A stretch of DNA of 64,000 nucleotides from Isoetes taiwanensis (taxonomy: Eukaryota > Streptophyta > Lycopodiopsida > Isoetales > Isoetaceae), in assembly GCA_021234155.1 (NCBI GenBank), contig JAJEKV010000004.1:8808109-8872108 (forward strand), read 5' to 3'. Both the position numbers and the translations under genes were made by a program. The notes below the pieces were generated by a model. The model was not told the origin of the DNA. It worked only from the letters and a program-made list of their open reading frames with translations, and did no database searches. This document shows, in pieces, positions 17,665 to 64,000 of this stretch. How positions within the stretch are numbered: the stretch's first letter is position 1; each line of letters starts with the position of its first letter.

Positions 17665-17666
17665 AG

Positions 17667-41905: not shown

Positions 41906-43350
41906 ACTTCCACCATGCGACCTTCACTGTAGCCCCCTCCTCATTTCCTCCCCAAACAAAATTGTGAATGGTGTCATCCAACTCCTTAACCACACTTTCT
42001 GGCGCAAGTATGCAGGAGGCTGCGTAAACATGAGTGCTACAGAGCACTGACTTGGCTACCAGAATCCTACCAGCCATGGTGAGTTTACTTCCTCTCCACC
42101 AGTTCAGATGCTGCTTAAAATTCTGTAATGTCTCCGCCCAAATTGCCCTAGCATTAATGTCCAAGCCAAATGGTATGCCTAACAGTTTGGCAGCTGTGTG
42201 TGGCAGTGTAAGAGCCCAGGGAAACTGACTCAACCACGCAGGAGGAGGTTCCTCCAGCACCCACATGACCGAGCACTTGGACCAATTAAGCAAGCATCCC
42301 GAAGCTAAAGAAAAGGCATCCAAAATATTCTTGGCTGCCTGGAGATTGGACTCATCTGCATGAAGAAAGAGGAATGTATCATCCACAAATTGACTGCAAA
42401 CCTGTTGCAACCCATCATCCATGTGGAGACCTTGCACCACATTGTCAGCAACTGCGACCTGAAAAAGCTGCGAGAGAGCTTCTGCCACTATAGTGAACAG
42501 AAAGGGGGCCAGCGGACACCCATGCCTAATGCCTCGGCCCACAGAGAAGATTGAAGAGGTCTCACCCTGACACCACACTGTCGCCCTAGTTGACACGTGC
42601 AGCTTCATAATCGTTTCCCTGAAACTAGGTCCACACCCAAAGGCCTGCATCATATCCGCCAAGAACTGCCAGCTGACACTGTCATAAGCCTTGGCAAAAT
42701 CCAGCTTAAGAAAAACAAGGGGCTGCCTCATCCTACGAGCCCAATGCACTCCCTCAAAAGCAGCAGCCACATTATGAAGAATATTCTGCCGAGGGAGAAA
42801 ACCAGGCTGCTCTGTGCTAATGGCATGAACTAGCACTGGCTTAAGCCTCTCAGCCAAAGCCTTAGCAATGATTTTATACACTATAGACAACAGAGTAATA
42901 AGCCTCCAGTCACTGATGGTTTTAGGATGCTTACATTTGGGTATAAGTGAAATACAACCTGTATTCAGTAGAGGATGCATCGAGTTATTCCCCAAAAGAT
43001 CCACATACACCTGCACCACCGAGTCCCCCGCCCACTCCCAGTACTGCTGAAAAAACTCCACTGGTATTCCGTCCAACCCAGGACACTTATTCCGAGCCAA
43101 CAGGCGGCATGCGTCCCCCAACTCCTGCCCTGTCAACGGCTCCTCTAAGCTCTGTCTTTGAAGGGCTGAGATTCTTGGCGATACCTTGGCCAGCACCAGC
43201 TCCTGAAACACACTCTGTGAGGGAAGCAGACTCTCCTTGAAAAACCTTTCATAATGCGCTGCTGCAAAGGCCTTGATAGCATCTGATTGCTTCAACAACA
43301 CTCCCTGGGGTGTAACTATGTCAGCCATGGCTGCTGCATACTTCTTCTGG
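41709..43350 (-). pseudogene. LINE ORF2 reverse transcriptase
   Basis: The frame contains all RT blocks: NKCPGLDGIPVEFFQQYW, ISLIPKCKHPKTISDWRLIT, LKLDFAKAYDSVSW, GRGIRHGCPLAPFLF and the catalytic FVDDTFLF (Y/F-x-D-D type). Then come LLNWSKCSVMW and the thumb region with GGLGMLEV. It performs target-primed reverse transcription in active elements. The 5' side joins the preceding segment through a frameshift, and a 21-bp direct duplication (7 residues, RQKKYAA) lies at about 43330-43372. The 3' side shifts near 41725. The RT core itself appears intact. Confidence 0.85.
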
Positions 43351-43359
43351 CGGGCTGCA

Positions 43360-44470
43360 TACTTCTTCTGGCGGACTTTAGAGCAAGTGACGTCAAACCC
43401 GCTTTGACCCTGGCCTGCGACACCTTGGCCTCCTCCTCAACCTCGATCTGACGAAGCACCTGCTGCTCACGCAAGCCACCAGAGACCCGCCCTCTAAGAG
43501 ACTCCAATTCCGCATATAAGTGACGCTGAGCCAAAGCCTTTTGCCGCCCCCATTCTTTCGCAAACTGTTTTACTCTAGCCGTAACCATTGCACTCATTCC
43601 ACTGTCCTGACTGAATATCTACTGCCAAATGAGCTTACAGCCAGCTGTGAACTCTGGATCCTGAAGAAAGCTTGTGTTAAGCTTAAAAACCGTCCTGAGA
43701 GGCCGCGGTGGGCAGTCATGAAGCCGCTGAATGATCTGGGGAGTGTGATCAGAGACAGAGGTGGCCAGAACATTTACCCTAGTGAAGGCTGGAGCATAAT
43801 CCAAGACTGCTGGAGTGCCATAAACTCTATCCAGCCTAGAGTATGCCCTACCATGCCCCAGCCAATTATTGCACCAAGTAAAATTCCGATCCCCAGGAAG
43901 CTCTGTCAAACCCCACTCCCGCACAAGCCTAAGCCATTGGTCACGCTCAAAACCCTGCACAATATCTGAACCAATACCATGCCTGTCCTCTGGGAGCTCC
44001 ACCATGTTAAAGTCACCCAAGACAAACCATGTAGAACCCATACCAAAGGACTGGAGGTTATTTCGCAGTTGTGCCCATAAACAACCTCTCTGCGTGGCCC
44101 CAATTGGTGCATACACATTTACTAAGCCCCACTCATACTGGCCCTTCCATTTAATCACTGCCCACTGGCCCTGGCTATCTGTGGCTGAAAAGGTTACATG
44201 TACACTCATTTTTCAACAAATCAAAGTACCTCCCCTGGTCCTGCCCGTTGTAGCAGCTGCAGCCACATACTGATTACCCAAGATATTCATTAGGTTGTTG
44301 ATATCGCCCCGGCACATTTATGCTCCTGCACACGCAAGATATCTGGATTAAGATTCTTCACAGCCATGGCGAGACATGCTCGCTTATTCGGAGAGGATTT
44401 GATGCCTCTCACATTCCAAGATAGAATTTTCTTATCCATGTGGGTCTTTGTGCACCAAGGGGCCATGATC
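43360..44470 (-). pseudogene. LINE ORF2 endonuclease, frameshifted
   Basis: The start is at about 44440 with MDKKILSWNVRGI and, further on, LNPDILRVQEHKC. These hold the conserved Asn and Glu of the APE-type endonuclease (QEHK in place of the usual QETK). After a shift near 44290 it continues with WGLVNVYAPI, FVLGDFNMVE, the 'SRLDR' block and SDHTPQI, the catalytic DFN and SDH motifs. A second shift near 43600 precedes the linker to the RT. It nicks target DNA in active elements. Confidence 0.75.
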
Positions 44471-45929
44471 CCCTTGCAAAGCCTCACATGCCTCAACACG
44501 ATCAGCCCAGGAAGAAAAGTTCTGGACTACTTGATCAATCACCATTTGATCCACTTGAGGAGGGGCCTGCACAGTGGGCTGCAGATGGGCTAAATGACCC
44601 TCTTGAGGAGCTCTCACCTGAGCTCGCCTCCTAGAAACAACTTGTTGCCACCCTTCCTCTTTCTGCTGCAACTCTTCAATTTGTGCAAGTCTCCTACATA
44701 CATCGGGATCCACCATACGAGAGGAGGGTTCAGGTTGTGTCCCTGGACTGCCCACCTGCTCCACAGCCTTCATTTGCTCTGCCTGCTTGGGTGCTGAATG
44801 AGGATTATGCTGGTGAAACTGCTTAAGCGAAGGAAACATTGCCAAAAGCTCCCCCCCATTGAGCAAGTCCAACTGGAAGAAAGAATAATAATCACCATTT
44901 TTAACCACAAGACTCTGAGGTAACACTTCATCCGCCCGAATACCTACACATATCTGTGGTGCACCCACAATCGAGTGCGCTATGTGAGTTCCCAGGCCTT
45001 TGCCCATGGCCATTAGAAACTCAGGCACCATCATCTCTGGACAGATCCCGGATTTGAAGCCAGCATGGCATTCTAACTGCAGCAGGCCTAGCAGAAGAGA
45101 AACCTGGAGCATAATGCTGGAAAAAAACATAGCCTCCTCCCATATGTGCCACTCCATGCGAGACCAACTGCTCCACCGTGGCCTCAGAATCAACCATAAT
45201 AAGAAAAAAATTATTACCCAGCAGGGTCATATATGGAGGCAACCCCAGCCTCTTAAACTGAGCCCGTAGCCAGTACCCAAGCCTCTGCATATCCAAAAAG
45301 GCCCCAGTGAAATGGCCTAAGACCAAAGATGCAACCAAATTCTTTGTATACTGCACATGCTTCTGGTGATTGATTTCTACAACAGGAGGTAATGATTTAA
45401 AAACTTGCTGCAAATCCTTCTTGTTATTCTGCTCTAAGAAAAGCAGTGCCTCTGTCACCCTAAAACGTTTCTCTGCACTTTCTGCTTGCAACGGTTGCCT
45501 AATCCAATAAAAAAACCTAGGCCTAGAAAGACGGGCAATTGTGTCATTACCTTTCCATGCATGAGGAGCTGCGGCTCGTGGTGATTGAGGCATCGCCTCT
45601 GAGGGGTCTTCTGGCAGCAAACCACCATTCACACCAACCAAGGATGGCAAAGTTACAGACTCCAAAGGTGGCATCGAGCTGGGCACCACCTCTCTATTCT
45701 CCATCCAATCCGAATTTCCAAAAGCCAGCTCCTGGGAATCCACCGGATGCCTACTGGATACATCCTGGCTAAGAATTGGCTCTTGAAGATCCAGCGCCAA
45801 GCTGACACAGCTTTTGGATACGTCCTTGCCTCCTTTCTTTCCTCTCGCAGCATCTCTGACACGAATCCCTGGCCCAGCCTTCTCCAGGCCCAAAATCGGT
45901 GCAGGATTCCCCACCATCACTATGTTCAA
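44432..45929 (-). pseudogene. LINE ORF1 (nucleic-acid-binding, DUF4283-like)
   Basis: The first frame, MNIVMVGNPAPILGLEKAGP onward, runs to about 45035 and includes VASLVLGHFTGAFLDMQRLG, LPPYMTLLGNNFFLIMVDSE and CWLQIRDLS. A one-base shift then leads to PEFLMAMGKGLGTHI and a glutamine-rich C-terminal part ending near 44432. This layout matches the DUF4283-type RNA-binding ORF1 of plant L1 elements. I see no CCHC knuckle. ORF1 ends just upstream of ORF2. Confidence 0.65.
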
Positions 45930-45983
45930 GGGTTTGTCATCAGCAGTGCCAGCAGTCCACCCAAATACTTATAAGTATCGCAT

Positions 45984-48950: not shown

Positions 48951-49070
48951 ATCTTTTTTTTGATTGAAGGCTATTTATATTAATTAAAGTATAATAGATT
49001 GTACAAAAAACTTTTTTCAAGGGAAGTTTAACCCTTAAAAAATATCAGCTTATGCGGGATAAAGGATTAA
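48951..49070 (-). mobile_element. LINE 3' tail fragment abutting the LTR
   Basis: A plus-strand T-run followed by 'gattgaaggctatttatatt' and 'gtacaaaaaac' has the same layout as the 3' ends of the two LINEs upstream (T-run, 'gaagaatataagaatatatt', 'gtacaatg'). It looks like the 3' end of another 5'-truncated LINE. The chromovirus LTR begins directly after it, so the retrovirus-like element may have inserted into it. Confidence 0.4.
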
Positions 49071-50530
49071 TGTGACGTTCCAGTATGATATACGGTCTCA
49101 AGACGTATACTGTACTGCACCGTCTCCAGTCGACGTGTACGCGCCCTAGGGGGCAACTTGCAATGGTGCGCACACTTAGCAATGCGCGCACCTTTAGACC
49201 TTTAACCCATTAAAGGTAGACCAAGGGTCATGGAAACCCTAAACCTAACTGATAGCCTACATAAGGCACCAAACCCTAACATTCCCTTTTTCGCCCACAG
49301 ACCTCCCGAGCTCCGATTCGCGTGCCTGAGGAATCAATTCCAACTCCCACGATCTGCCCGTGTGCCCCAGCTTGTCAGATCATTCCTCCAACCGCATCCC
49401 GAAGTAGAACAGAGACATGGACACCTTCGGATCAAGAGGAGTGAACCAGGGATCAGGTATTTGGTCGATTGAATAGCCTAAACCTTATTCCAGCCTTCGA
49501 ACCAGTAGGTTTAGCCTATTAAACCGCCCTTAGTAGCCAAGCTGATCCTGAGATTGACTCTAACTAAAGAACCTAACTCTATGAGATAGATTAGTTCTTA
49601 TTGCTTATGTTGATATGATGGACGAATGCATTCTGTGGACTCATTGTATTGGGAAGGGGGGTAGAGACTTAAAGCTTAGTAGATGATGCTCCTAGCTAGT
49701 CCCTCTTAGTGCATTACTAGAATTCGGCCTGTGTACAGGAGCCCACCTGGTTGTGGGTGAAGGGGCCAGACTGGCTTAGAATGAGGTTCGTGTTCTGACC
49801 CTTGACCGATCCCTCTGGTGTGTAAGGCCTATCGGGGATCAGAGTGACTAGGTCTAATGGCTTGCCACTGAGTGTGGGTAAGGCATGGGCTCGACACCCG
49901 TGGGGTGGTGTACACCTTCCAGTGGGTTAAGTCGAATAAGGGCAGTGGCCCTCTAGTCATCTTGGGTCAGCATGTAGATCTCTGGAGGGAGCGATCCCTA
50001 CCTGCCCCATCGGGACTGGGGAGATGTAACCCAGGAATAGCCCCTTTGGCTATGCACCCGGCGGGCTACAGTCAGGTCCCAACACTTTTCAACCTACTCT
50101 GCAAAGTGTGCACAGGAGGGGCGGATGGAGTGGACAACCCTAAGCCATGTTCTTATGCCAGCCCAACCCATTGTCATGATTCTGTCTGCAATGAACTCTG
50201 GAGACCCAAGCTTGTCAGTCATCCCCTGGAGTCTGAGCCTTGGGTAGGAACTTCCTTTGTATTGTGCTGATCTTTGTCTATGCAGATGTTGAGGTGCCAC
50301 CCTTCGAGGTGGATATATGATGTTATGTTACTGACGTGTATGTTTACGCTTCTGCAGCTAGGTAGGCCCTGAGGGAGACGGGGTAAAATGACCCCTTCAC
50401 TCTTCCCACTGTGGACCCTAGAAGGTCACAGTGATATGTGGAGGGCCCTGTATCAGTGTGGAGCTGGTGCGGGGGATGAACTCCTATTTGTATACGGTGC
50501 GGGCATCGTATACGAGTAGGGGACGTCACA
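49071..50530 (+). repeat. 5' LTR of chromovirus copy 1
   Basis: 1,460 bp from TGTGACGT to ACGTCACA, which form perfect 8-bp terminal inverted repeats with the canonical TG..CA. It is followed after one base by a tRNA-Met primer-binding site. It matches the 60418-61888 LTR almost throughout, with small clustered differences and a roughly 15-bp insertion near the start of the other copy. GTATACG/CGTATAC inverted repeats lie near both ends. Half-CRE motifs (TGACGT/ACGTCA) at both ends are potential bZIP sites. Confidence 0.95.
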
Positions 50531-50531
50531 G

Positions 50532-50543
50532 TGGTATCAGAGC
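50532..50543 (+). other. Primer-binding site, tRNA-iMet
   Basis: TGGTATCAGAGC, complementary to the 3' end of plant initiator tRNA-Met, lies one base after the LTR. Confidence 0.95.
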
Positions 50544-50736
50544 AATGTTCTTGGAGACCAAGAGCAAAGCACTGACCATGCTCCCAGTAGTACTAATTTG
50601 GTAGGATCCTCAAGCCTCGAAAAGTGGGAAATTTTTTTTTCTCATTTTTGTAGTTTATGCTAAGCTAGTAACAGTTAAGTGAATTGGAACTTAATAAGAC
50701 TAAAAAGAATGAGCCAAAACCTCCTCAGGCAAGGTG

Positions 50737-50803
50737 GTCTCACACGTCGCGCCTGGTCAAAGAACTGAACTTTAGTTTTTGAGCAGGGCGCTACCTGTGA
50801 GAC
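50737..50803 (+). repeat. 67-nt palindrome H1 (upstream of ORF1)
   Basis: GTCTCACA at the left pairs with TGTGAGAC at the right. Inner segments GCGCCTG..TCAAA and TTTGAGCAGGGCGC also pair, leaving a small loop around 'gaactt'. It is the first of four family members in the element, all in the same orientation and all 67 nt long. The stem may act in RNA (leader structure or packaging) or as a DNA element upstream of the ORF1 promoter. Confidence 0.85.
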
Positions 50804-50927
50804 ATCGAGCCAAGAACACAGTAAACTTGATGAATTTGAGAAAGGTAATATGGTAAGGCCAGTTCTAAGGTAAGAATTAGTTAGAATAGTATGTTTAAAT
50901 CACTTAAATTACTTAAAGATGTGTAAG

Positions 50928-50994
50928 ATCTCACACGTAGCGCCTGGTCTAAAAACTAAACTCTAGTTTTTGAACAGGGCGATACCTGTGAGAC
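50928..50994 (+). repeat. 67-nt palindrome H2 (upstream of ORF1)
   Basis: Same family as H1, with ATCTCACA replacing GTCTCACA at the left and GCGCCTGGTCTAAAAAC pairing with GTTTTTGAACAGGGCG. It starts 191 nt after H1 and 169 nt before the TATAAATAG of ORF1. Confidence 0.85.
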
Positions 50995-51096
50995 CAATAA
51001 GTAGAAAAGGTCTGAAATAAGTGTAAGTTTTAAGTAAATAGGTGCCTTGGCATGTTAAATAGAGCAACTTGAATTTTGACCTAAAATTGCCCAAGC

Positions 51097-51105
51097 TATA
51101 AATAG
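51097..51105 (+). promoter_or_regulatory. TATA box of ORF1 (copy 1)
   Basis: TATAAATAG, 109 nt upstream of the ORF1 ATG. The leader between contains CCTCATTT, a pyrimidine-rich 'tctgctcccgctccct' and 'aggcgatctt', all with counterparts in the ORF2 leader. This supports independent Pol II initiation inside the element. Confidence 0.6.
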
Positions 51106-51205
51106 ATGTAGACCCCCCTCATTTGTACGTTCCCGTCCTTGAAATCTGCTCCCGCTCCCTAAGGCGATCTTTGGCGTCCGATATCCGATTGTCGAACCGT
51201 CAAAC

Positions 51206-52494
51206 ATGGCACGGACCAAGCAGACTGCCAGGAAGGCCCGTCCAGGCGAAACCCCCAGCGCCAGCGACGCCAATCTCATTCAACAGATGCTTCGGGAGAG
51301 GCTCGTTGCGAGAGGAGGTCGACTATCTTCGAGCGAGGAGAGCATCGCAGATGAGCAGAACGAGGAGATAGGCCAGCAGACCGACCGAGAAGAAGATGTG
51401 CACTCGGATGCCGGGACAGAGCTGCTCGACGAAGAAGACGAAGAGGAAGCAGCAAAGCGAGAAAGGAGAACCAAGGCCCGAGGGAGTAGAGGATGCCGAC
51501 TCCAGAGCTTCACTCATTGAAGAACAAGTCGAGGCCCGGATTCGGGCGAGAAAGAAGCAGAGGAGCAGCAGAAGAGGGAGCGAGCCAAGGCTCGAGCCAA
51601 GTGAAGAGGAAGACCTCGCGGCCTGGATCGCAAAGCATGAAGCAAAACAACGTCGCAGGGAAAGCAGGAAGAGGAAGAGGGAAGAAGAGGAGGCGAAAGC
51701 GGCGGAGGAACTCAAGCAGAAGAAAGGGAAATTTGTCGGGAGCCCAAGGAAGCTCAAGAAAGTTCCGCAAGTAAAGAATCCTAACCCTAAGATCGCGGAT
51801 CACCGAGAGGCCACCGACACCACCGAACTCTTCCGGGCGACTGGACGAAGACCATGTCCCCAACACCGAAGGTGGAAGCTCTTCTAAGCCCCCAGATGAT
51901 GAGCAGGCAATACCCCACCAAGAGCACCCCGACCTGGAGCAGCAGAACCAAGCGCAGAAGCCCCCTCCTTATCCGAAGTGGGACAGGAAGAAGCAACCAC
52001 GGCCTGCCCGAGAGTCCTATGTCACGGACCCCGTGAAGATCTATGAGAGAAAGATGAGGGAGCACGAGGCATACATGAAGGAGTGGGAGGCTTACAACTC
52101 CTACTATCAGGAGAACAGAGTACGGACCATAGAGGGTGGACATCCGACAAAGCAGCAGACTCTAAGGCCGCCACCACTGAAGCCCAAGGTCCCTAAGAAG
52201 CCAGCCAAGAAAAAGCCCAGCAGGAAGGAGACCGAGAGAAGAGCGCTAAGAGAGATTAGGCACTTCCAGCACAGTTATGGCCTCCTAATTCCCCGTGCCC
52301 CCTTTAATCGTCTAGTTAGAGAAGTCATGCAGGACTTCAACACTGGCATGAGGGTCACAGATGAGATGCTGCTGGCACTGCAGGAAGCGGCTGAGCAGAA
52401 AATAGTGCAACATTTTGAAGACTCGACAGCTTGCACTCATTTTGTAATAATAATCAATTTTGAGTACTTTATGTGTCTGAACTTGTTTAATTAG
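51206..52494 (+). pseudogene. H3-like ORF1, copy 1 (frameshifted, fold intact)
   Basis: It starts MARTKQTARKARPGETPSAS: residues 1-9 after Met are identical to the histone H3 tail, including K4 and K9, and S10 is Ala. An acidic then basic coiled-coil-like linker follows. The first frame ends at 51520, and the product continues in other frames (to 51887, and from about 52033), so copy 1 carries two or three indels relative to copy 2. The C-terminal frame has a lysine/proline-rich hinge and then ALREIRHFQ, LLIPRAPFNRLVREV, QDFNT, ALQEAAE and HFEDSTACTH at 52243-52440. These align colinearly with H3 alpha-N, alpha-1, loop 1 and alpha-2, with about half of the positions identical by eye. Alpha-3 is absent: after THF the frame reads VIIINFEYFMCLNLFN and stops. 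LLIP+APF is a plant CENH3-type signature. It lies between two hairpin pairs. Confidence 0.85.
52243..52440 (+). other. Histone-fold segment (alpha-N to alpha-2) in ORF1 copy 1
   Basis: 66 codons with the spacing of histone H3 throughout, including the same loop-1 length as canonical H3 (QDFNTRMRVTDEMLLALQ against the H3 pattern QDFkTdlRfqssavmALQ). EIRHFQ and LLIPRAPF follow plant CENH3, whereas RLVREV-QDF follows canonical H3. The L2/alpha-3 part, needed for a full handshake dimer with H4, is missing. Confidence 0.8.
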
Positions 52495-52560
52495 GACAAG
52501 TTAGCAAGTAGTAGTTTTTGTTTTAGTAAAATAGGACATTTGCAGACCAAAAAGTGTGAT

Positions 52561-52627
52561 GTCTCACACGTCGCGCCTGGTCAAGAAACTAAAGTTTAGT
52601 TTTTGGACGAGGCGCTAGCTATGAGAC
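52561..52627 (+). repeat. 67-nt palindrome H3 (upstream of ORF2)
   Basis: GTCTCACA pairs with TATGAGAC (one mismatch). GCGCC pairs with GGCGC, and AAACTAAA with TTTAGTTT around a single base. Same family and length as H1 and H2. Confidence 0.85.
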
Positions 52628-52760
52628 CTTGCCCAAATTTGCCCAAAACAGCTCCAAATTGACCAAGTAAGGGATCAATTCTGCCTAATTTGATGAGTCT
52701 GTCATGCTTCAACCCTTATTTTATCCAAATTGGACATGTTCTGATCGAAATGGGACTGAT

Positions 52761-52827
52761 GTCTCACACGTCGCGCCTGGTCAAGAAACTAAAGTGTAGC
52801 TTTTGAACGAGGCGCTACCTGTGAGAC
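52761..52827 (+). repeat. 67-nt palindrome H4 (upstream of ORF2)
   Basis: Same family, with GTCTCACA/TGTGAGAC perfect and GCGCC/GGCGC perfect. It lies 200 nt after H3 and 258 nt before the ORF2 TATA box, mirroring the ORF1 arrangement. Confidence 0.85.
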
Positions 52828-53018
52828 CTCCTACCAATTCTTCACCATAACTTGTCCAAATGATCTTCAACCTGTTGTATTAGCATCGTTAGGTAATCCA
52901 GTCATGCTCAAACCCTTAAATTAGTCTTCCAATTCCCATTTTGACCTTAATATAGGCTAGAATTGCCCAACCCCAAGAATTTTCCAAGTCACCCAAAAAT
53001 TAGGGTTTTCCCCTTTTC

Positions 53019-53027
53019 TATAAATAG
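53019..53027 (+). promoter_or_regulatory. TATA box of ORF2
   Basis: TATAAATAG, 122 nt upstream of the ORF2 ATG. The following leader shares CCTCATTT, 'tttgctcctgccccct' and 'gctccctgaggcgctctt' with the ORF1 leader, so the two promoter modules look homologous. Confidence 0.6.
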
Positions 53028-53140
53028 GTTCCTCATTTCATATGTAGCACCCTACGAGTTTGCTCCTGCCCCCTTAGCCGATTTTCCAGCTCCCTGAGGC
53101 GCTCTTGCATCCGTTTGCTAGTCTCTTCCTCGCTAAACTC

Positions 53141-54668
53141 ATGGCAACCTCTGATTTCAGGCGATGGTACAGCGCCAGCGCTCATGCTGCCGAGGCTGAC
53201 ATCGATGAGATTTTCCGGGTCTTCCAGAAAGAAATAGATGTTCAAGCAACCTTGCACGCAACCCCAGCATATAGCAGAGTCCTGTCTGAATTCCAAGCTA
53301 GTGTAGAGCCATCGTTAGTACAACTCCCACCTTGCATAGGCTACTTTGTTCCTAGGCAATCCCTTCAAGCAGCCTTAGGCAATGTTCCTAACATTGCCAA
53401 GTATCTCACAAACAAGGCCCAGCGCATGCCCGAGCCAATGGTCCTGACTGTCAACAGGACCAAGTACTTCTCTTTCAACGCTGCGTTAGCAATTTTTCTT
53501 ACCCACCGTGCCGAGAACCCCATGGGAGAAACTTCCATTCCCCCCATGGACGTGGACCCATTAGCTACCGCAGCAGCACAACAGCTCCTTTCGCAGTATG
53601 AACAGGAGCAAGAAGGAAAGGAAGAAGACGAGAAGTCAGAAGAAGAAGATGACGACTACGTCGAGCTCGATCCAGCAGAAGAGCAGCGGCTAGCAGAACA
53701 AGAGTTGCAAGAATTCGAGAGAAGCCGGCAAACTCTCAGGATAGCGCCACCCCTTGGGCTAGGCATCACAAGACTAGCCCCCATCATCGTCGAGGGCGAA
53801 GAGTATTTGCTCCTAAGCGACATCCAAAACCTCCCGGAGTGCAGGGAAAGAGAGTATCGACCTGACGAGTTGCTGCACCAACTTCGGAGAACAGACCTGG
53901 ACGACTTCATCGTCCGAGGAACCTCCGACTTCCCACTCCAAGTAAGGGAAGCCGACACTTATACGGGAGAGTCCACCTCCGACATTCAATCCTATAGCAA
54001 CATAAGGCAGATTATGGAGGCGCGGGAACTACCGACGGAGAAAGAGTTCCTTGCTCTACAGGAACAGATGGGGATCCGCCACAAGACCTCGAACATCTTA
54101 ACGGCAAGTTCTTCAACAACACCTCCCCGAACGAGAAGAGGCGAGTTCGACCTCAGGAGAGCTTCAGCAACAGTCAGAGACTACAGGGAGCTCACCACGA
54201 TGGAGGTCGATGACTATGCCGGCAGACACAGATTTGGAGGCCGAGGAGGCGAGGATCCGTCACACAACGACAGGTCGTTGCGGTATTACCTTCCCCTGCT
54301 GATGGATGGAAGAATAGCGGTAATTCACCGCAAATTCACCCCCAGGGGCGAGGAAGGAGTATCGATGCTAATTGCGCTCTCAGGCTTTGGCCGGCATGCT
54401 CGGCTAGCTCCCAACACCGAGGATGCCATCCTGGTGAAGAGAGCGGTAGCACTCGATGTTTTTGACTTTGCCATACCTTACAGACGGCAGGGGAAGAAGG
54501 CAAGTGACCGCCGCCTACACCTCCGAGCGCAGGATAGAAGATTTGGCGAGAGCTTTGCAGGGTGGATCTTCAGTCAACGTCCTTAGGAACTTGGGTCATT
54601 CAGTGGGAACAGCCCAAGTGAAGAAGTTCCTAGAGGATAATCCATCCTACCGGAGATATCAAGAATAG
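53141..54668 (+). pseudogene. ORF2, unknown protein before gag
   Basis: It starts at the ATG at 53141 (MATSDFRRWYSASAHAAEAD). An open frame runs to 54586. The more protein-like ending is in the +1 frame from about 54470 (RIEDLARALQGG ... NPSYRRYQE, stop at 54668), so one frameshift lies near 54470-54490. The N-terminal ~130 residues look globular (FQKEIDVQATLHATPAYSRV, YFSFNAALAIFLTH). Then a strongly acidic stretch (about residues 158-195: EEDEKSEEEDDDYVELD), then a second, mixed globular part. I do not recognise a family. It is not a standard gag, and a distant histone or chromatin-protein relationship could not be shown. Own TATA box and hairpin pair upstream. Confidence 0.6.
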
Positions 54669-54839
54669 TTAGGAATCTTGATCCCGGAAACCTTTTTGTA
54701 TTAATATATTATATAATATGAATATTTAACTTCTTTTGCACTTAATTGTTTTGTTGATGTATTTTTGTTCCGCAACTATACCAACAACACACATAATGCA
54801 AGAGAACAAATAAAACTAACATTACAGCCATGACCAATT

Positions 54840-56182
54840 GTGTATGCAAATAGGGAACAAAGAACGGTCGAGCAAAACAGGAGGCCCAACAGAGATGAAG
54901 AGACCCCTGACAGGCAACCCCTTCAAAGGAACCTTTTCGAAGGATATGGCCCCATGACCCCAGAAGAGGAGATGTCGCAAATGCGAACAGAGCTGGACCA
55001 GATAAAACCCCTACTAGCAGCACAAGCATCAGCCGGGCCACAAACGACACCCCGAAAGTCGGAGAAAGACAAAAGGAGGAGCAAGAGAAGGAGGTCCCCC
55101 AGCACAGAGACCTTCGACTCAAGCTCGCTCTCGGACTCTGAGTCCGAGAAAGAGGCCGACCAGGTGCCGGACCATAGAGACGGCAGATAGAAAGACACTA
55201 AGGCCCTGGAGTACCAGAAGAAAGTGGACTCAGCACTGGGCAATGTATGGAAAGCCCGGAAACTCGAACAGTTCTCGGGCGAGAACAGATCCGGCTTAGA
55301 GGCAGGGGCATGGCTCGACGAAATGAGCGAGTATGGAAATGCCTACGGCATGAAGGATAAGGACAAAGGCAGGGGTGGCAACGGCCAACCCCGAAGGGCC
55401 GCGACGCGATATGGTGGAAGGGCTATGCCAAGGCCCATGGTTTGAGCAGTAGATGCATGCCGATTTAAGAAGTTCTCAAAAGCTTTCAAACACCACTATG
55501 TTCCTCGAGAACACAAGTCAAATATGATGCAAAGAAGTTCTACAAAGTTGCAACAAGGTTACAAGACGATGCGTATACAATCAAGAATTCATGAGGCTAA
55601 GATGTATATGTGCCTAAGCCGAAAGGAGAAACACGCAGCTGGAAAGCTACATAGAAGGACTGAACGAGGAAACAGGAAGCTCGTGAAGGGCAATAGACCC
55701 AAAAAACAAGATCTCAAGCATAATCCAAGGCAATTAGTTTGCAAGGATCCGGGCCCCGCATCAAATAAGACGTAAGCAGCTTTACTATCGATAGAGGCAA
55801 AGCAACGAGGGAGCTACGGTCCTAGGGCAGCCAGCCCAAGTCCAAAGAAAGTCCCCATACAATAGCAACCGGGAAAAAAAAGAAAGAAAGCGTGTGTCCT
55901 TCGGGGACAAACAGAAGGTTCCAACTACCGAAAGCAAAGACGGTCCTTTTACAAGCGATGCCCAAGGAGAAAAGGCAGGAATGCATAGACAAGCAGCTCT
56001 GCTTTAGATGTTTCCAGCCGGGCCACCGAAGGGCGAACTGCCCATTTGTTATGAGCTCGGCGCTAGCGGAATGGGGCGGATGGGACACTCCGTCAGATGA
56101 GGACGGCGAGGCAGCACGCGATTATATTCAGGATGAGTGCCACATCTTCGCTGCTATAGATACAGAACAGGCAGAGACCTAG
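54840..56182 (+). pseudogene. Gag of the chromovirus, broken
   Basis: Pieces in order: a charged, SR/KR-rich N-terminal region (54840-55187), an in-frame TAG at 55188, then KARKLEQFSGENRSGLEAGA followed by WLDEMSEYGNAYGM. The latter is the 'kF.G......a..Wl..m' start of the Ty3-type gag core. Several shifts follow between about 55370 and 55890. The last part carries the zinc knuckle CFRCFQPGHRRANC (C-x2-C-x4-H-x4-C, about 55999-56040) and ends at a TAG (56180) that is in frame with pol. The start codon is uncertain. Confidence 0.75.
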
Positions 56183-57159
56183 TATAAGGTAATCTCAACA
56201 GTAGGGAAGGCAAAGGCTAAGTCTTTCATAGTCTTGATAGACTCCGGAAGTAGCCATAACTTCGCATCCCTGAGGATGGTTGAAATGTTGAAATTGAAAC
56301 CCCTAAAGTCCAAGCCAAGACCCGTAATCTTGGCAAGCGGAGCAGTAAGACATACAGCTGGAAAAAGGATCAACTTCGACATCGATTGGCCAGGGATTAA
56401 TATCCAGATGGGGGCAGAAGTAATGGGCATTGGCAAGTATGACTTGATCGTTGGAATGGAGTACCTTGGACCAGCAGGGGCCATCATTGATTGTGGAAAG
56501 CGGAAGGTGACCTTCCCAACACCCGACGGCAAAGCCATTGAGATCACAGGTAAAGAAGTTACTCCCATCATGCAGCGTATGTCTGTTAAGAAGCTGCTCA
56601 AGTCTATAAAGAGCGAGCAGGTAGCATACATCTTCAAACTTGAGGTTGAGGAACCCGAGTCGGAGGGAAGCAAAGAAGAAAAAGTGCTCAGCAAGTTGCC
56701 CAAGCAAATCGCCAACTTGATCACGGAGTTCCACGATCTCTTTCCAGATGAGATCGAGAAGCTTCCTCCTTACAGGGGAGTAGAGTGTGAGATAGCACTC
56801 GAACCAGGGACCAAGCCGACGAGCAAGGCCCCATATAGAATGACCACACATGAACTCACGGAGCTAAAGAAGCAGTTACAAGAATTGCTCGATCTACGCA
56901 GCGTCTCACCATTTGGGGCACCCATCCTCTTTGTCAAGAAAAAGGATGGAAGCTTGAGAATGTGCATAAATTATAGATAATTGAACAAGCACACCATCAA
57001 GAACAAGTACGCACTCCCCAGATCGGACGACTTGATGGATCAGCTCCAAGGGGCAAAGGTCTTCTCCAAGATCGACCTAAGGTTAGGTTATCACCAGATC
57101 AGAATAAAGGAAGGGGACATCCACAAAACGGCTTTCATGGGCATTACGAGTTCACTGTA
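56183..57159 (+). pseudogene. Pol: protease and N-terminal RT, broken
   Basis: Protease with VLIDSGSSHNF (catalytic D-S-G). Then the RT begins with CEIALEPGTKPTSKAPYRMT and SPFGAPILFVKKKDGSLRMC. An in-frame TAA at 56978 interrupts [32 protein letters not shown] follows in frame. About 10 bases are missing after KTAF near 57138, causing a shift before [12 protein letters not shown]. The frame is continuous with the zinc-knuckle part of gag apart from the stop at 56180, suggesting a single gag-pol ORF originally. Confidence 0.8.
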
Positions 57160-58266
57160 ATGCCATTTGGGCTATCCAACGCCCCAGCTACGTTCATGAG
57201 ACTCATGAACGACATCTTCAGAGAATTCTTAGACAACTTTGTCATAGTATTCTTCGACGATATTCTAGTGTACAGCAAAACCATTGAAGAGCATGCACAA
57301 CACGTAAGAAAGGTGCTCGAGAAGTTAAGGAGGCATCAGTTGTATGCCAAGTTGTCGAAGTGCCACTTCACAACAGAGAAGGTGGAATACCTCGGTCATG
57401 TGATTTCAGCAGAAGGAATCTCGACAGACCCCGCTAAGATTGAAGCAGTAATCCAATGGCCGGCACCAAAGAACGTCCATGAGGTCAGAAGTTTCCTTGG
57501 CCTCGCAGGGTATTACAGAAAGTTCGTGAAGAACTTCGCAAAGATAGCAGCCCCACTGACAGACTTGACAAAGGTGGAGAAAGTGAAAAATTGGGCAGAC
57601 CATTGGCTCAAGAAAGCCCAAGTAGGATTTGAATTGTTGAAGGAAGCTTTGACAACCGCCCCCGTCTTAACCCTGCTTGACCCAGAAAAGGACAAGTTAG
57701 TGGCGACGGACGTAAGCAAGATAGCCACAGGTGCAGTGCTCATGCAAGAGGAGCGGGTAATAGCGTACGACTCAAGGAAGATGAATGACGCCGAAACGCA
57801 TTACCCGACGCACGACCAAGAGCTGCTAGCAGTTGGCAGGGCGTTGAGAATCTGGAGGCATTACCTCTTAGGGAGGAAGTTCCAGCTGGACACTGATCAC
57901 CAGAGCCTCCAGTACGTATTCACGCAACCACATCTCAATCTGAGGCAGAGAAGGTGGATGGAGTTTCTCGAGGAGTACGACTTTGATATAGTCTACAAGC
58001 CCGGGAAACTTAATGTGGTCGCAGATGCGTTTTCAAGGCATCCGCTGACAACCAGGGTGCACTGCAAGGCAATCTCAACACTCTTCAGCGATTTCGGGAA
58101 AAAGATAGAAGAAACCTTGCCAACAGATGTGGACTTCAAGGAAGTATGGGCAAGCTTGTGCAAGGAAGCGAAAACGGATAAGGAGAGGGAAACCTTCAAA
58201 AATTTTAAGAAGGTAACCTCCTATACCACAAGAACAAGTTGTGCGTGCCGGAATCATCTGGAGTAA
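57160..58266 (+). pseudogene. Pol: RT (FFDD) and RNase H
   Basis: [20 protein letters not shown], then [12 protein letters not shown] with the catalytic F-F-D-D at 57250-57264. The thumb is followed by RNase H beginning [26 protein letters not shown] and DALSR-like DAFSRHP close the domain. The frame is open for 368 codons and leaves the true frame near 58200, where a shift leads to the integrase. Confidence 0.85.
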
Positions 58267-59585
58267 GAAAGTTGATCCTCCACGACACCCACAACAGCCC
58301 AATAGCTGGCCACGCAGGATTCATGAAGACATACTTTAAAGTGCGTAGCAGCTACTATTGGCCAGGAATGAAGAAGCATATAGCTCGCCACATCAAGGAG
58401 CGCCAGCTATGCCAGCAAACGAAGGCAGAACAACTTCAAATTCCAGGGGCATTGGAACCACTAGCGGTGCCAAACGCTAAGTGGAAGGTTGTCAGCATGG
58501 ACTTTATAACAGGACTGCCAAGGACAGTAAGAGGTAAGGATGCCTTGATGGTCGTGGTCGACAAGTTGTCGAAGATGGCCCATTTTGTGCCTTGCAGGAC
58601 CACGGACACAGCTATGGATACGGCAAAGCTCTTCACCAAAGAGATCTTCAGACTCCATGGCATGCCAAGGAAAATTATCTCCGACCGAGATCCGAAGTTC
58701 ATCAGTGCCTTCTGGCAGGATCTCTTCACAACGATTGGAACGAAGCTATCCATGAGCACGGCTTATCATCCGCAGACGGATGGGCAAACGGAGCGTGTCA
58801 ACAGAATATTGGAAGACATGCTCCGAAACTATGTCTGGAACAAGCAAGGTATGTGGGAGGAATTTATTCACTTGGTGGAGTTTGCATACAATAGCACCAA
58901 GCAGGAATCATCCCAAATGTCGTCGTTCATGATCAACTGCGGCTACCAATGCCTACTTGGCACAATCCCGTGTCAAAAGTGGAAGTTTCGCAGCAAATGT
59001 TGAGCGACATGCAGCAGCTTGTGGAAGAAGTTCGAGGGTACCTTCTAGCAGCAAGGAGTCGACAGAAGAGCATTGCCGACAAACATCGGACAGTCAGAGA
59101 ATTCCAAGTCAGAGATGATGTATGGCTCAAGATCAAGGTAAAGCAGGCGAAACTCCGCATCGGAAATTGCAAGAAGCTTGCTCCAAGATGGGCTGGACCC
59201 TTCAGAATAGTCCCGAGAGTGGGTAACCAATCCTACAAGTTAGACTTGCCAGCACACTTAAAGATCCACAAAGTCTTCCACGTGAGTCTGCTGAAGAAGC
59301 ATACTCCCAATCTAGAGGAAGTTTTGGACACCCCAACGATGTTGGAAATGACAGAAGAGCAGATAGAAATAGTTCCAGAACTAATTCTTGATAAAGCATT
59401 CAAGAAAACAAGGAGATCGGAGTTTCTCCAATACTTGGTCAAGTGGAAACACTTGCCGGTGGAAGACGCGACATGGGCACTTAAAAGAGATCTGGAAAAA
59501 ACAGTACCCACAGTTTATGGAGCAATGGGACGGCAAGGTCATCTCCGAAGAAATCGGCTCAGGCATGTCGAATTGTGTAGATTAA
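58239..59585 (+). pseudogene. Pol: integrase with C-terminal chromodomain
   Basis: The zinc-binding region is H..H (LHDTHN, GHAG) then RQLCQQTK, in which the first Cys of the usual C-x2-C is Arg. Catalytic core: MDFITGLPR, SDRDPKF and HPQTDGQTERVN give D, D, E. A shift near 58950 leads to WLKIKVKQAKLRIG, WAGPFRIV (GPY/F module) and FHVSLLKKHTPN. The chromodomain IVPELILDKAF...EFLQYLVKWKHLPVEDATW lies at about 59368-59480. It retains the central Trp but lacks the other two cage aromatics, as in group II chromodomains. An A-run indel near 59495 shifts the frame, and the likely original stop is at 59583-59585 (GMSNCVD). Confidence 0.85.
59368..59500 (+). other. Integrase chromodomain
   Basis: Colinear with HP1-type chromodomains: 'ilDka.kk....eYLVKWKhlP.edATW'. 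Cage position 2 (W in VKWK) is present. Positions 1 and 3, expected aromatic, appear as Ile and Leu. In chromoviruses this domain directs integration to particular chromatin. Presence is well supported; binding specificity is not. Confidence 0.8.
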
Positions 59586-60404
59586 TAGCTTGCCTACTTA
59601 AGTATAATCTACGCATGCAACCTATGAGGTAAGGGTTGCATGCGTTGTTACCGATGATGAGATTACTACGGTGATCTCTAGGACGTGGTGTAATGTCAAT
59701 GTAGGCATGACCGCGGTGCCGCTTGGAAAGTCTACTTCTGTCCCACGGAAGTAGACGACCTCGAGAGAAAGGAGGTCATTGAGGAATGCATTGATAGGAA
59801 AAGCACCTCTAGCCCCATATATGCTTTGATAGGAGGAATCTGGCCTTCACGCCCCATATACGGGAAGGACCTATCCTCCACGCTGGGCAACTAAAGGTGT
59901 AGGCATGAGCGCCATATAGGCATTATAGGCATTGTCTCCTCGGCCACGATGGAAGAATCATCCTCTTCCTACGCCGAGAGATTAGCCATGCATTCATGTA
60001 GATAGGTGGGGTGGTCATCATATAACCAAAATTTTATTTAATATTAATGGTACTAACGTAGTATTGACCCGCAGGCCAATAGAGCGCTCCGGAGGGCCAG
60101 GAGGTCGAACTACGAAGACTTGCAACACAATTTTGTTGTAATGTGTTGCAAGGAATAAAGAGTACCTCAAAGAATAATTGTACATATAATAATAAAACCG
60201 AAACATTAGGAGTTATTGTTATAATGACAAAGTGATAACTATTGGATTGAATAATAGTATAATAATGTTCTATAAATATTACCTTGAGGTAATTCTATTA
60301 AATGTATAACTATAGTAATAAGTATGTCCTATGCATGAGGTTGATTGCAGGTTAAGAAGATCCCAAGGTGGGGAGAACCACGATGCTGCGGACAGCATCA
60401 ATTC
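59586..60404 (+). other. Non-coding 3' region between pol and the PPT
   Basis: No ORF of note. Directly after pol there is a perfect 12-bp inverted repeat (ACGCATGCAACC at 59611-59622 and GGTTGCATGCGT at 59634-59645). The middle contains several repeats of 'gccccatata' and 'ataggcat'. It is unusually long for a plant chromovirus 3' region. Confidence 0.5.
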
Positions 60405-60417
60405 AAGGTGGGGAGAA
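60365..60417 (+). other. Polypurine tract, duplicated around a hairpin
   Basis: AAGGTGGGGAGAA occurs at 60405-60417 directly before the 3' LTR and again at 60365-60377. Between them GATGCTG-CGGA-CAGCATC (60382-60399) forms a perfect 7-bp stem. The proximal tract is the expected plus-strand primer site. Confidence 0.85.
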
Positions 60418-61888
60418 TGTGACGTTCCAGTACGATATACGGTCTCAAGACGTATACCATACTACGCCGTCACGCGTACACGCCGTCCAGTCGACGTGTA
60501 CGCGCCCTAGGGGGCAACTTGCAATGGTGCGCACACTTAGCAATGCGCGCACCTTTAGAACTTTAACCCATTAAAGGTAGACCAAGGGTCATGGAAACCC
60601 TAAACCTAACTGATAGCCTACATAAGGCACCAAACCCTAACATTCCCTTTTTCGCCCACAGACCTCCCGAGCTCTGATTCGCGCACTTGAGGAGTCAATT
60701 CCAACTCCCACGATCTGCCCGTGTGCCCCAGCTTGTCAGATCATTCCTCCAACCGCATCCCGAAGCAGAACAGAGACATGGACACCTTCGGATCAAGAGG
60801 AGTGAACCAGGGATCAGGTATTTGGTCGATTGAATAGCCTAAACCTTATTCCAGCCTTCGAACCAGTAGGTTTAGCCTATTAAACCGCCCTTAGTAGCCA
60901 AGCTGATCCTGAGATTGACTCTAACTAAAGAACCTAACTCTATGAGATAGATTAGTTCTTATTGCTTATGTTGATATGATGGACGAATGCATTCTGTGGA
61001 CTCATTGTATTGGGAAGGGGGGTAGAGACTTAAAGCTTAGTAGATGATGCTCCTAGCTAGTCCCTCTTAGTGCATTACTAGAATTCGGCCTGTATATAGG
61101 AGCCCACCTGGTTGTGGGTGAAAGGGCCAGACTGGCTTAGAATGAGGTTCGTGTTCTGACCCTTGACCGATCCCTCTGGTGTGTAAGGCCTACCGGGGAT
61201 CAGAGTGACTAGGTCTAATGGCTTGCCATTGAGTGTGGGTAAGGCATGGGCTCGACACCCGTGGGGTGGTGTACACCTTCCAGTGGGTTAAGTCGAATAA
61301 GGGCAGTGGCCCTCTAGTCATCTTGGGTCAGCATGTAGATCTCTGGAGGGAGCGATCCCTACCGCCCCATCGGGATGGGGAGATGTAACCCGGGAATAGC
61401 CCCTTTGGCTATGCACCCGAGCTGGCTACAATCAGTCCCAACACTTTTCAACCTACTCGCAAAGTGTGTGGGAGGGGCGGATGGAGTGGACAACCCTAAG
61501 CCATGTTCTTATGCCAGCCCAACCCATTGTCATAATGCATGCGCAATAATGAACTATGGAGACCCAAGCTTGTCAGTCATCCCCTGGAGTCTGAGCCTTG
61601 GGTAGGAACTTCCTTTTTATTGTGCTGATCTTTGTCTATGCAGATGTTGAGGTGCCACCCTTCGAGGTGGATATATGATGTTATGTTACTGACGTGTATG
61701 TTTACGCTTCCGCAGCTAGGTAGGCCCTGAGGGAGACGGGGTAAAATGACCCCTTCACTCTTCCCACTGTGGACTCTAGAAGGTCACAGTGATATGTGGA
61801 GGGCCCTGTATCAGTGTGGAGCTGGTGCGGGGGATGAACTCCTGTTTGTATACGGTGCGGGCATCGTATACGAGTAGGGGACGTCACA
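60418..61888 (+). repeat. Shared LTR (3' of copy 1, 5' of copy 2)
   Basis: 1,471 bp, TGTGACGT...ACGTCACA, near-identical to the LTR at 49071-50530. Differences are clustered (start of the LTR; around 61360-61450; around 61535-61560). It is preceded by a PPT and followed by a PBS, so it serves both copies. Confidence 0.95.
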
Positions 61889-61889
61889 G

Positions 61890-61901
61890 TGGTATCAGAG
61901 C
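61890..61901 (+). other. Primer-binding site, copy 2
   Basis: TGGTATCAGAGC directly after the shared LTR, identical to that at 50532. Confidence 0.95.
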
Positions 61902-62094
61902 AATGTTCTTGGAGACCAAGAGCAAAGCACTGACCATGCTCCCAGTAGTACTAATTTGGTAGGATCCTCAAGCCTCGAAAAGTGGGAAATTTTTTTTCTC
62001 ATTTTTTGTAGTTTATGCTAAGCTAGTAACAGTTAAGTGAATTGGAACTTAATAAGACTAAAAAGAATGAGCCAAAACCTCCTCAGGCAAGGTG

Positions 62095-62160
62095 GTCTCA
62101 CACGTCGCGCCTGGTCAAAGAACTGAATTTTAGTTTTTGAGCAGTATGCCACCGTGAGAC
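62095..62160 (+). repeat. Palindrome H1, copy 2 (partly decayed)
   Basis: Left arm as in copy 1. The right arm reads GCAGTATGCCACCGTGAGAC instead of a complement, so the inner stem is disrupted here. Confidence 0.75.
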
Positions 62161-62284
62161 ATCGAGCCAAGAAACTGATAAACTTGATGAATTTGAGAAA
62201 GGTAATATGGTAAGGCCAGTTCTAAGGTAAGAATTAGTTAGAATAGTATGTTTAAATCACTTAAATTACTTAAAGATGTGTAAG

Positions 62285-62351
62285 ATCTCACACGTAGCGC
62301 CTGGTCTAAAAACTAAACTCTAGTTTTTGAAAGCAGGCGATACTGTGAGAC
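62285..62351 (+). repeat. Palindrome H2, copy 2
   Basis: Equivalent to 50928-50994, with small changes in the right arm (GAAAGCAGGCGATACTGTGAGAC). The terminal TCTCACA/TGTGAGA pairing is kept. Confidence 0.8.
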
Positions 62352-62453
62352 CAATAAGTAGAAAAGGTCTGAAATAAGTGTAAGTTTTAAGTAAATAGGT
62401 GCCTTGGCATGTTAAATAGAGCAACTTGAATTTTGACCTAAAATTGCCCAAGC

Positions 62454-62462
62454 TATAAATAG
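62454..62462 (+). promoter_or_regulatory. TATA box of ORF1, copy 2
   Basis: TATAAATAG, 109 nt before the ATG at 62563. Box and leader are identical to copy 1 except for one base in the leader. Confidence 0.6.
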
Positions 62463-62562
62463 ATGTAGACCCCCCTCATTTGTACGTTCCCGTCCTTGAA
62501 ATCTGCTCCCGCTCCCTAAGGCGATCTTTGGCGCCCGATATCCGATTGTCGAACCGTCAAAC

Positions 62563-63747
62563 ATGGCACGGACCAAGCAGACTGCCAGGAAGGCCCGTCC
62601 AGGCGAAACCCCCAGCGCCAGCGACGCCAATCTCATTCAACAGATGCTTCGGGAGAGGCTCGTTGCGAGAGGAGGTCGACTATCTTCGAGCGAGGAGAGC
62701 ATCGCAGATGAGCAGAACGAGGAGATAGGCCAGCAGACCGACCGAGAAGAAGATGTGCACTCGGATGCCGGGACAGAGCTGCTCGACGAAGAAGACGAAG
62801 AGGAAGAGGAAGCAGCAAAGCGAGAAAGGAGAACCAAGGCCCGAGGGGAGCAGAGGATGCCGACTCCAGAGCCGACCATTGAAGAACAAGTCGAGGCCTG
62901 GATTCGCGAGAAAGAAGTAGAGGAGCAGCAAGAGCGGAGCGAGCCAAGGCTCGAGCCAAGTGAAGAGGAAGACCTCGCGGCCTGGATCGCAAAGCATGAA
63001 GCAAAACAACGTCGCAGGAAAAGCAGGAAGAGGAAGAGGGAAGAAGAGGAGGCGAAAGCGGCGGAGGAACTCAAGCAGAAGAAAGGGAAATTTGTCGGGA
63101 GCCCAAGGAAGCTCAAGAAAGTTCCGCAAGTAAAGAATCCTAACCCTAAGATCGTGATCACTGAGAGGCCACCTGATCAGCCACCGAACTCTTCTGGCGA
63201 CTCCTCCGACGAAGACCATGTCCCCAACACCGAAGGTGGAAGCTCTTCTAAGCCCCCAGATGATGAGCAGGCAATACCCCACCAAGAGCACCCCGACCTG
63301 GAGCAGCAGAACCAAGCGCAGAAGCCCCCTCCTTATCCGAAGTGGGACAGGAAGAAGCAACCACGGCCTGCCCGAGAGTCCTATGTCACGGACCCCGTGA
63401 AGATCTATGAGAGAAAGATGAGGGAGCACGAGGCATACATGAAGGAGTGGGAGGCTTACAACTCCTACTATCAGGAGAACAGAGTACGGACCATAGAGGG
63501 TGGACATCCGACAAAGCAGCAGACTCTAAGGCCGCCACCACTGAAGCCCAAGGTCCCTAAGAAGCCAGCCAAGAAAAAGCCCAGCAGGAAGGAGACCGAG
63601 AGAAGAGCGCTAAGAGAGATTAGGCACTTCCAAGCACGCAGTTATGGCCTCCTAATTCCCCGTGCCCCCTTTAATCGTCTAGTTAGAGAAGTCATGCAGG
63701 ACTTCAACACTCGCATGAGGGTCACAGATGAGATGTCTTGGCGGTAA
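62563..63747 (+). CDS. H3-like ORF1, copy 2 (394 codons, fold interrupted)
   Basis: Start MARTKQTARK, identical to H3 residues 1-9 after Met. Residues ~24-45 form a short helix-like segment (LIQQMLRERLVARGG). Residues ~46-90 are acidic (DEEDEEEEEAA), and ~105-180 are alternating acidic/basic coiled coil with KQRRRKSRKRKREEEEAK, a likely nuclear-localisation region. Residues ~195-320 are Pro/Gln-rich and low complexity, with DPVKIYERKMREHEAYMKEW near the end. Then comes a PKVPKKPAKKKPSRK hinge and, from residue 349, the histone fold ALREIRHFQ...LLIPRAPFNRLVREV. A 3-bp insertion adds a residue after IRHFQ relative to copy 1. At 63735-63747 the sequence diverges to EMSWR-stop, and alpha-2 (KEAAE...IVQHFEDSTACTH) is readable only in another frame. 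The linker is intact here and the fold intact in copy 1. Confidence 0.85.
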   Translation: MARTKQTARKARPGETPSASDANLIQQMLRERLVARGGRLSSSEESIADEQNEEIGQQTDREEDVHSDAGTELLDEEDEEEEEAAKRERRTKARGEQRMPTPEPTIEEQVEAWIREKEVEEQQERSEPRLEPSEEEDLAAWIAKHEAKQRRRKSRKRKREEEEAKAAEELKQKKGKFVGSPRKLKKVPQVKNPNPKIVITERPPDQPPNSSGDSSDEDHVPNTEGGSSSKPPDDEQAIPHQEHPDLEQQNQAQKPPPYPKWDRKKQPRPARESYVTDPVKIYERKMREHEAYMKEWEAYNSYYQENRVRTIEGGHPTKQQTLRPPPLKPKVPKKPAKKKPSRKETERRALREIRHFQARSYGLLIPRAPFNRLVREVMQDFNTRMRVTDEMSWR

Positions 63748-63999: not shown

Positions 64000-64000
64000 C

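Follow-up and report, generated by a model that had tools for sequence, protein, structure and literature searches.

The locus described here raised the question of whether an LTR retrotransposon of the quillwort Isoetes taiwanensis had captured a gene of the histone H3 family, as was claimed in an initial annotation of the 64,000-nucleotide stretch of DNA analysed (the window). The position of the open reading frame concerned (ORF1) in the copies read, the full H3 fold encoded elsewhere in the genome and the high copy number were observed directly, and the capture was supported both by the histone score and by further copies having the ORF in the same place. We propose that ORF1 is probably an H3-fold accessory gene of an Isoetes Ty3/gypsy chromovirus lineage, captured from the host and acting on chromatin. 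With greater confidence, its product is very probably a histone-fold accessory protein maintained by selection.

The element was found in the window as two units with the middle LTR in common, the first starting at 49071 and the second following the shared LTR (Table 1). Unit 1 had the LTRs, primer-binding site and polypurine tract, followed the order protease, reverse transcriptase, RNase H and integrase (Pfam RVP_2, RVT_1, RNase H and rve), and ended its integrase with an ordinary C-terminal chromodomain (Chromo, PF00385, 1.5e-08). When the chromodomain was inspected by eye, W45 was present and Y24 and Y48 were missing. The primer-binding site TGGTATCAGAGC presumably matches initiator tRNA-Met. 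The stretches 49069-52628 and 60416-64000, belonging to units 1 and 2, were 96.5% identical, and their differences fell in tight clusters that could be noise of long-read assembly or decay; the accessible text of the genome paper describes an assembly from Nanopore reads (PMC8566536). The LTR-internal-LTR-internal order of 49071-64000 is as expected after inter-LTR recombination. The tRNA and Rfam scans of the window gave no matches, and the NCBIfam scan gave one irrelevant weak match.

Table 1. Coordinates of the chromovirus features in the window.
Feature	Position	Strand	Remark
LTR, unit 1	49071..50530	+	TGTGACG...CGTCACA
Primer-binding site, unit 1	50532..50543	+	TGGTATCAGAGC
Two hairpin repeats 5' of ORF1	50737..50999	+	~50737-50806 and ~50928-50995; z -5.9, -7.4
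TATAAATAG before ORF1	51097..51105	+	109 bases 5' of the ORF1 start; possible internal promoter (inference)
ORF1 unit 1, part one	51206..51520	+	M-ARTKQTARK..., frame then lost
ORF1 unit 1, second frame	51775..52494	+	H3-type alpha-N, alpha-1, loop 1 and alpha-2 at 52243-52434
Site of ~96 extra bases (alpha-3 and C-terminus) in other copies	52437..52439	+	7/7 other fetched copies
Two hairpin repeats between ORF1 and ORF2	52561..52831	+	z -5.8, -6.2
TATAAATAG before ORF2	53019..53027	+	119 bases 5' of the ORF2 start
ORF2	53138..54586	+	distant relative in family A
gag region	54834..56182	+	several frames; zinc knuckle ~55997 (under Pfam cut-off)
Protease, reverse transcriptase, RNase H	56183..58266	+	two frames; Pfam
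Integrase and C-terminal chromodomain	58209..59632	+	two frames; Pfam
Polypurine tract	60405..60417	+	AAGGTGGGGAGAA
LTR common to units 1 and 2	60418..61888	+	
Primer-binding site, unit 2	61890..61901	+	
ORF1 unit 2	62563..63747	+	M-ARTKQTARK to alpha-2 start; 394 aa open, then frame lost

Some features of the window lay outside the chromovirus. A plant L1-type LINE with broken frames was located at 40709-45968 on the minus strand (DUF4283, an endonuclease below cut-off, reverse transcriptase and zf-RVT). A 529-aa coiled-coil ORF at 17616-19205, perhaps a host gene, had no Pfam match; we take it to resemble plant Bfr1-like proteins. A 293-base repeat stood in nearly two tandem copies, 92% alike, at 36955-37490.

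ORF1 sits inside the LTR element, between the primer-binding site and ORF2, gag and pol. The claim that it opens with M-ARTKQTARK, the H3 1-9 tail, in two tandem copies was confirmed at 51206 (unit 1) and 62563 (unit 2), the tail match by itself having an E of 0.003-0.005 over the whole window. From residue 10 onwards, ORF1 of the window family (the window element and its close copies) was unlike H3. The ORF1 of unit 2 was a single frame open from 62563 to 63744, giving 394 aa from Met with a linker of alternating acidic and basic character; the longest frame of that stretch measured 415 aa, whereas none of 300 dinucleotide shuffles gave one longer than 230. The ORF1 of unit 1 was broken into two frames, the fold being encoded in the second (51775-52494).

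The profile search proposed in the initial annotation returned significant Pfam Histone scores for both folds (4.1e-18 in unit 1 and 6.5e-09 in unit 2). The unit 1 fold also matched a PDB chain of H3.3 at 2.7e-18, and was 44% identical over 104 columns to Arabidopsis H3.3. The histone fold at the end of ORF1 was confirmed, with the unit 1 frame split and that of unit 2 lost at the start of alpha-2. The window ORF1 stops short after alpha-2, and alpha-3 is missing from both units. Single-sequence AlphaFold2 gave a poor model of the fold (mean pLDDT 56) that bears neither way on the assignment, and a Foldseek search with that model returned 41 weak matches, none of them to a histone and none reaching E 0.001. 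The identity of the histone fold is based on sequence evidence, not on structure prediction. Window units 1 and 2 are damaged and unable to make the full protein.

Further copies were sought across 1,658,258,908 bases of the Isoetes taiwanensis genome (1110 records). The unit 1 ORF1 piece gave 150 scored matches out of 9861 first-look candidates, with the two window units among them. Every match had an E of 1.2e-93 or better, and identities were 70-100%. By hand count, the matched stretch was free of stops in 108/150 and contained stops in 42/150. Most in-frame stops were TAG, which is what CAG codons would become by C-to-T decay. Seven other loci (L002-L008) were each colinear with the window over a stretch that begins close to the LTR end and reaches into ORF2, and five of them had the exact primer-binding site; additional copies of the kind expected, in which ORF1 stands between the primer-binding site and the ORFs that follow, were thereby found. 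The placement of ORF1 within an LTR element likewise held, since LTRs, primer-binding site and polypurine tract flank it in the window and it occupies the same place in other copies.

All seven loci had about 96 more bases at window position 52437/52439, which in the six with an open fold encode ACTVHAKRVTLMRQDM(Y/H)LASRIKGERP, an H3-type alpha-3 and C-terminus. Hence, the missing alpha-3 is a loss in the window units; the initial listing of a fold without alpha-3 was true of those units, but did not describe a trait of the family. A search of the downstream window by tblastn with alpha-3 peptides gave nothing convincing, and an intron before alpha-3 (GTAATA in the window) was considered and dropped once the other copies showed the loss. 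In L002, an ORF1 of 444 aa is open from MARTKQTARK to ...GERP. It scored 1.5e-28 against Pfam Histone over profile positions 7-122 of 122 when run without its first and last residue, and had alpha-N, alpha-1, loop 1, alpha-2 and alpha-3 in order, which the window units did not. Among eight window-family loci, MARTKQTARK was exact in four (L001, which is window unit 1, L002, L003 and L005), had one-residue variants in L007 and L008, and found no match in L004 and L006.

The whole genome was also searched with a back-translated motif, PGTVAL(R/K)EIR, which was encoded in 682 places (0 in the reversed control). Seventy of these loci were read, namely the first 30 listed and 40 picked by hand, partly for unusual codons, and the motif was in frame in 69. 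Ordinary host H3 genes, recognized by KSTGG or TGGVKKPHR upstream, made up 6/69 (L026, L028, L045, L046, L049 and L053); L045 and L046 share a contig (C445), at a distance of 52 kb from each other. The other 63 resembled element folds, of which 34 were open through alpha-3 and 29 were not, and were sorted into sequence groups A to D, mostly by reading the fold only.

For families A, B and C, the element context was read in a single copy per family (one 10-kb stretch each, L039-L041), from the 5' side to pol and short of the 3' LTRs. In each, an ORF1 with an H3 fold was followed by a second ORF, gag and pol; the ORF1 of the B copy and that of the C copy were each divided between two frames. These ORF1s scored 8.5e-41 (A), 1.2e-39 (B) and 1.8e-39 (C) against Pfam Histone, and Ty3_capsid was matched in family A at 3.6e-12. 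Families A and B share the primer-binding site of the window element, and the family C stretch contained no exact one. The RT-RNase H region was 78% (A), 73% (B) and 76% (C) identical to that of the window element. The three ORF1s had an N-terminal region in common (31-44% identity), to which the window ORF1 gave no match at E 0.01, and the H3 1-9 tail was absent from them. An H3-fold ORF is therefore not a feature of one odd element, since related families within the lineage have one as well. That the folds are merely host H3 genes lying near or inside elements has a negligible probability: ordinary H3 genes did occur among the loci, but the other folds outside the window family differ from host H3 and form their own clade (93/83), and ORF2, gag and pol follow in the same order wherever the context was read, which refutes that explanation at those loci.

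The second ORF of the window element encodes 482 aa from Met. It had no significant Pfam relative, its best PDB match was at E 0.4, and single-sequence AlphaFold2 gave a poor model. A distant relative (22% over 456 columns, E 2e-10) occupied the corresponding place in family A; family C gave short matches, and family B gave none at E 0.01. Two strong 70-base hairpins precede each of ORF1 and ORF2 (z -5.8 to -7.4), followed by the TATAAATAG sites given in Table 1. Both sites were present in 7/7 other window-family loci, where the exact hairpin pattern occurred 0 to 4 times per locus. The two leaders 3' of the hairpins aligned at a score of 62 against a maximum of 59 in 500 shuffles, a narrow margin. 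The duplicated leader may constitute a promoter cassette or an RNA signal cassette, and ORF1 and ORF2 may each have their own promoter.

Selection on the fold was estimated within families, as synonymous change was saturated between the window family and the others. The pooled pN/pS was 0.113 in the window family (6 loci, 15 pairs, chosen as top protein matches and thus biased toward conserved copies), 0.104 in family A (9 loci, 36 pairs), 0.075 in B (3 pairs) and 0.203 in C (1 pair), and that of two host H3 genes was 0.008. Codons with a single change gave N/S ratios of 0.29 in the window family and 0.05 in six of the nine family A loci, against 2.55 and 2.42 in simulations without selection. 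The ratio was 0.13 over the 34 open folds, which were retained only if open and are therefore biased toward intact copies. The effect exceeds what we would expect those sampling biases to give, and the fold seems to be under purifying selection in more than one family. It is accordingly very unlikely that the elements picked up a fragment of host H3 by accident and have since carried it as a functionless passenger. Captured gene fragments are common in plant LTR elements, and the broken frames and absent alpha-3 of both window units would suit a passenger; however, strong purifying selection in several families (pN/pS about 0.1) largely refutes it, full folds with an H3 C-terminus exist, and three sister families, all of one lineage, have the ORF at the corresponding position.

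The origin of the captured sequence was examined in trees of the fold. The window family grouped with plant CENH3, represented by three angiosperm sequences, at supports of 90/90, 95/89 and 96/93, and the sister families grouped with canonical H3 in a clade of their own (83/80 and 93/83). Human CENP-A fell on the H3 side. At the five positions from alpha-N to alpha-2 where the three plant CENH3s agree against H3 (63, 65, 85, 87 and 89), the window copy had the CENH3 residue in 5/5; L004 has I at position 85. The fold has a sixth position of this kind, 131 in alpha-3, where full copies have K, H3 has R and CENH3 has G. Among the fold positions at which the two H3s are identical and differ from every CENH3, the window copy had a CENH3 residue at 63, 65, 85, 89 and 107 and retained that of H3 at 76, 77, 78 and 80. 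The overall alignment score of the window fold was higher for H3.3 than for any CENH3, and a CENH3-type loop-1 insertion was absent from its alignment with H3. With two plant CENH3s as queries, no PDB chain reached 1e-40 or 1e-38. The trees suggest that the fold of the window family is nearer to CENH3 than to H3, but not every measure agrees.

A single ancestral capture for all folds, after which the window family diverged fast and came merely to resemble CENH3, has a substantial probability that falls somewhat short of even. It would account for the identical position of ORF1 within one retrotransposon lineage, and agrees with the alignment scores, the four retained H3 residues and the place of CENP-A; a topology with all element folds in one clade was only marginally disfavoured (p-AU 0.050, 0.028 without CENP-A, and 0.052). 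The grouping with plant CENH3 in the trees and the five CENH3 residues argue against it, as does the H3 1-9 N-terminus, found in the window family only among the element ORFs read. On these sequence comparisons two captures are favoured, not proven. The fuller proposal, that canonical H3 and CENH3 were captured separately and are used as nucleosome-forming variants marking element chromatin or steering integration, is possible and should be regarded as rather doubtful. The large insertion between tail and fold suggested in the initial annotation is one possibility only, since CENH3 tails vary and the sister N-terminal region differs.

A mechanism for a captured, chromatin-acting accessory protein was proposed from kept residues and ORF position. 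Host coding sequence of the H3 family would have been captured by an ancestor of the element; a CENH3-like sequence was probably taken, or acquired later, by the window family, and a canonical H3 by the sister families. The ORF1 protein would pair with host H4, be handled by host H3 chaperones, and enter or bind nucleosomes, thereby placing its element-encoded N-terminal extension on chromatin. The extension, which in the window family still has K4 and K9 within its H3 1-9 tail, might then either aid docking of the integration complex or make element chromatin harder to silence. We give roughly even chances to the ORF1 protein working within or on nucleosomes. Across seven folds, host H3 among them, all residues taken as H3-H3' and ASF1 contacts were kept except L126, which is I in family C, making H4 pairing and chaperone handling plausible. 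The window family lacks the RPGT that precedes alpha-N in H3 and has changes at R63, L65, F84 and K122, so that its DNA contacts would be weakened. The segments corresponding to the CATD (loop 1 and alpha-2), which directs CENP-A to centromeres according to the accessible text of two papers (PMC7475651, PMC5489561), are present but changed in the window family. Targeting of centromeres was retained as a speculative reading and not as the main explanation; repeats are described as evenly spread in the available sections of PMC8566536.

Two other functions were weighed against action on nucleosomes. The ARTKQTARK end could act as a mimic or decoy that occupies H3K4 and H3K9 enzymes or readers and never enters a nucleosome, which we consider improbable. 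The tail, exact in four of the eight window-family loci, changed at one residue in two and without a match in two, and the dissimilarity to H3 from residue 10 on are in its favour; yet the A and B ORFs read have no tail and their fold is selected, and the integrase chromodomain lacks Y24 and Y48 of the K9me cage, so that binding of the element integrase to the tail is not expected. Equally improbable is a role of ORF1 in packaging element RNA or cDNA, with the histone fold compacting nucleic acid in particles. A separate ORF before gag, an alternating acidic and basic linker and the binding of DNA by histone folds would suit such a role. However, the residues taken as H3-H3' and ASF1 contacts are kept and would not be needed for packaging alone, and a gag exists already (the Ty3_capsid match of family A and, below cut-off, the zinc knuckle of the window).

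The initial annotation knew of no described plant LTR element with such an ORF, and no retrotransposon with a histone H3 ORF was found in the open-licence PMC papers searched. The word histone occurs 0 times in the main text, as accessible, of PMC7264820, PMC8566536 and PMC10541799; two published genome papers on quillworts make no mention of the ORF. The unit 2 ORF1 protein had no relatives in IMG/VR and GTDB. To our knowledge, and within the literature searched, no retrotransposon lineage has been described with an H3-fold gene under selection. Histones package genomes and carry the marks by which transposons are silenced; if the proposal is true, a selected H3 made by a retrotransposon would be a case of a genomic parasite supplying part of the chromatin of its host, and, if two captures occurred, the window-family protein would be a centromeric histone encoded by a mobile element. 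Direct tests of how elements evade silencing or choose sites, and of whether a mobile element can influence centromeric chromatin, are thereby opened. Many of the H3 genes counted in an Isoetes genome may belong to elements.

Among known systems, the window family was compared with plant CENH3. Both have LLIPxAPF in alpha-1, T/E/L at H3 positions 85/87/89 and a MARTK start, and VTLMRxD before alpha-3 is as in Arabidopsis CENH3. Unlike plant CENH3, the window family has a 300-residue linker, no loop-1 insertion, an H3-like QDFxT, K rather than G at 131 and a location within a retrotransposon, and it starts with MARTKQTARK in place of MARTKH. Viral histones, such as the polydnavirus H4 with its extended tail and the Marseillevirus histones, are likewise core histones with extra sequence encoded by a mobile or viral genome; they belong to DNA viruses, whereas the Isoetes case is an H3 in a retrotransposon.

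The CRM centromeric retrotransposons are also chromoviruses and are linked to CENH3 chromatin; their group A targets it through the CR motif of the integrase, and the accessible text describes no histone gene in them (PMC3059260). The Ty3/gypsy chromoviruses with a type II chromodomain have the same protease, reverse transcriptase, RNase H, integrase and chromodomain. According to the available sections of PMC3350952, type II chromodomains are marked by the absence of Y24 and, in most cases, of Y48; Galadriel-like elements lack both residues, as the window element does, and Selaginella SM-Diluvium, also of group II, differs from it in keeping Y48. The same sections describe no histone ORF in type II chromoviruses, whereas the window element has two extra ORFs before gag (PMC3350952). 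The orchid Gypsy elements that hold a captured m6A RNA demethylase, as described in the accessible part of PMC9289625, likewise keep a captured host domain as an additional ORF through replication; the orchid capture is an enzyme, whereas that of Isoetes is a core histone, carried by several families of one lineage (PMC9289625).
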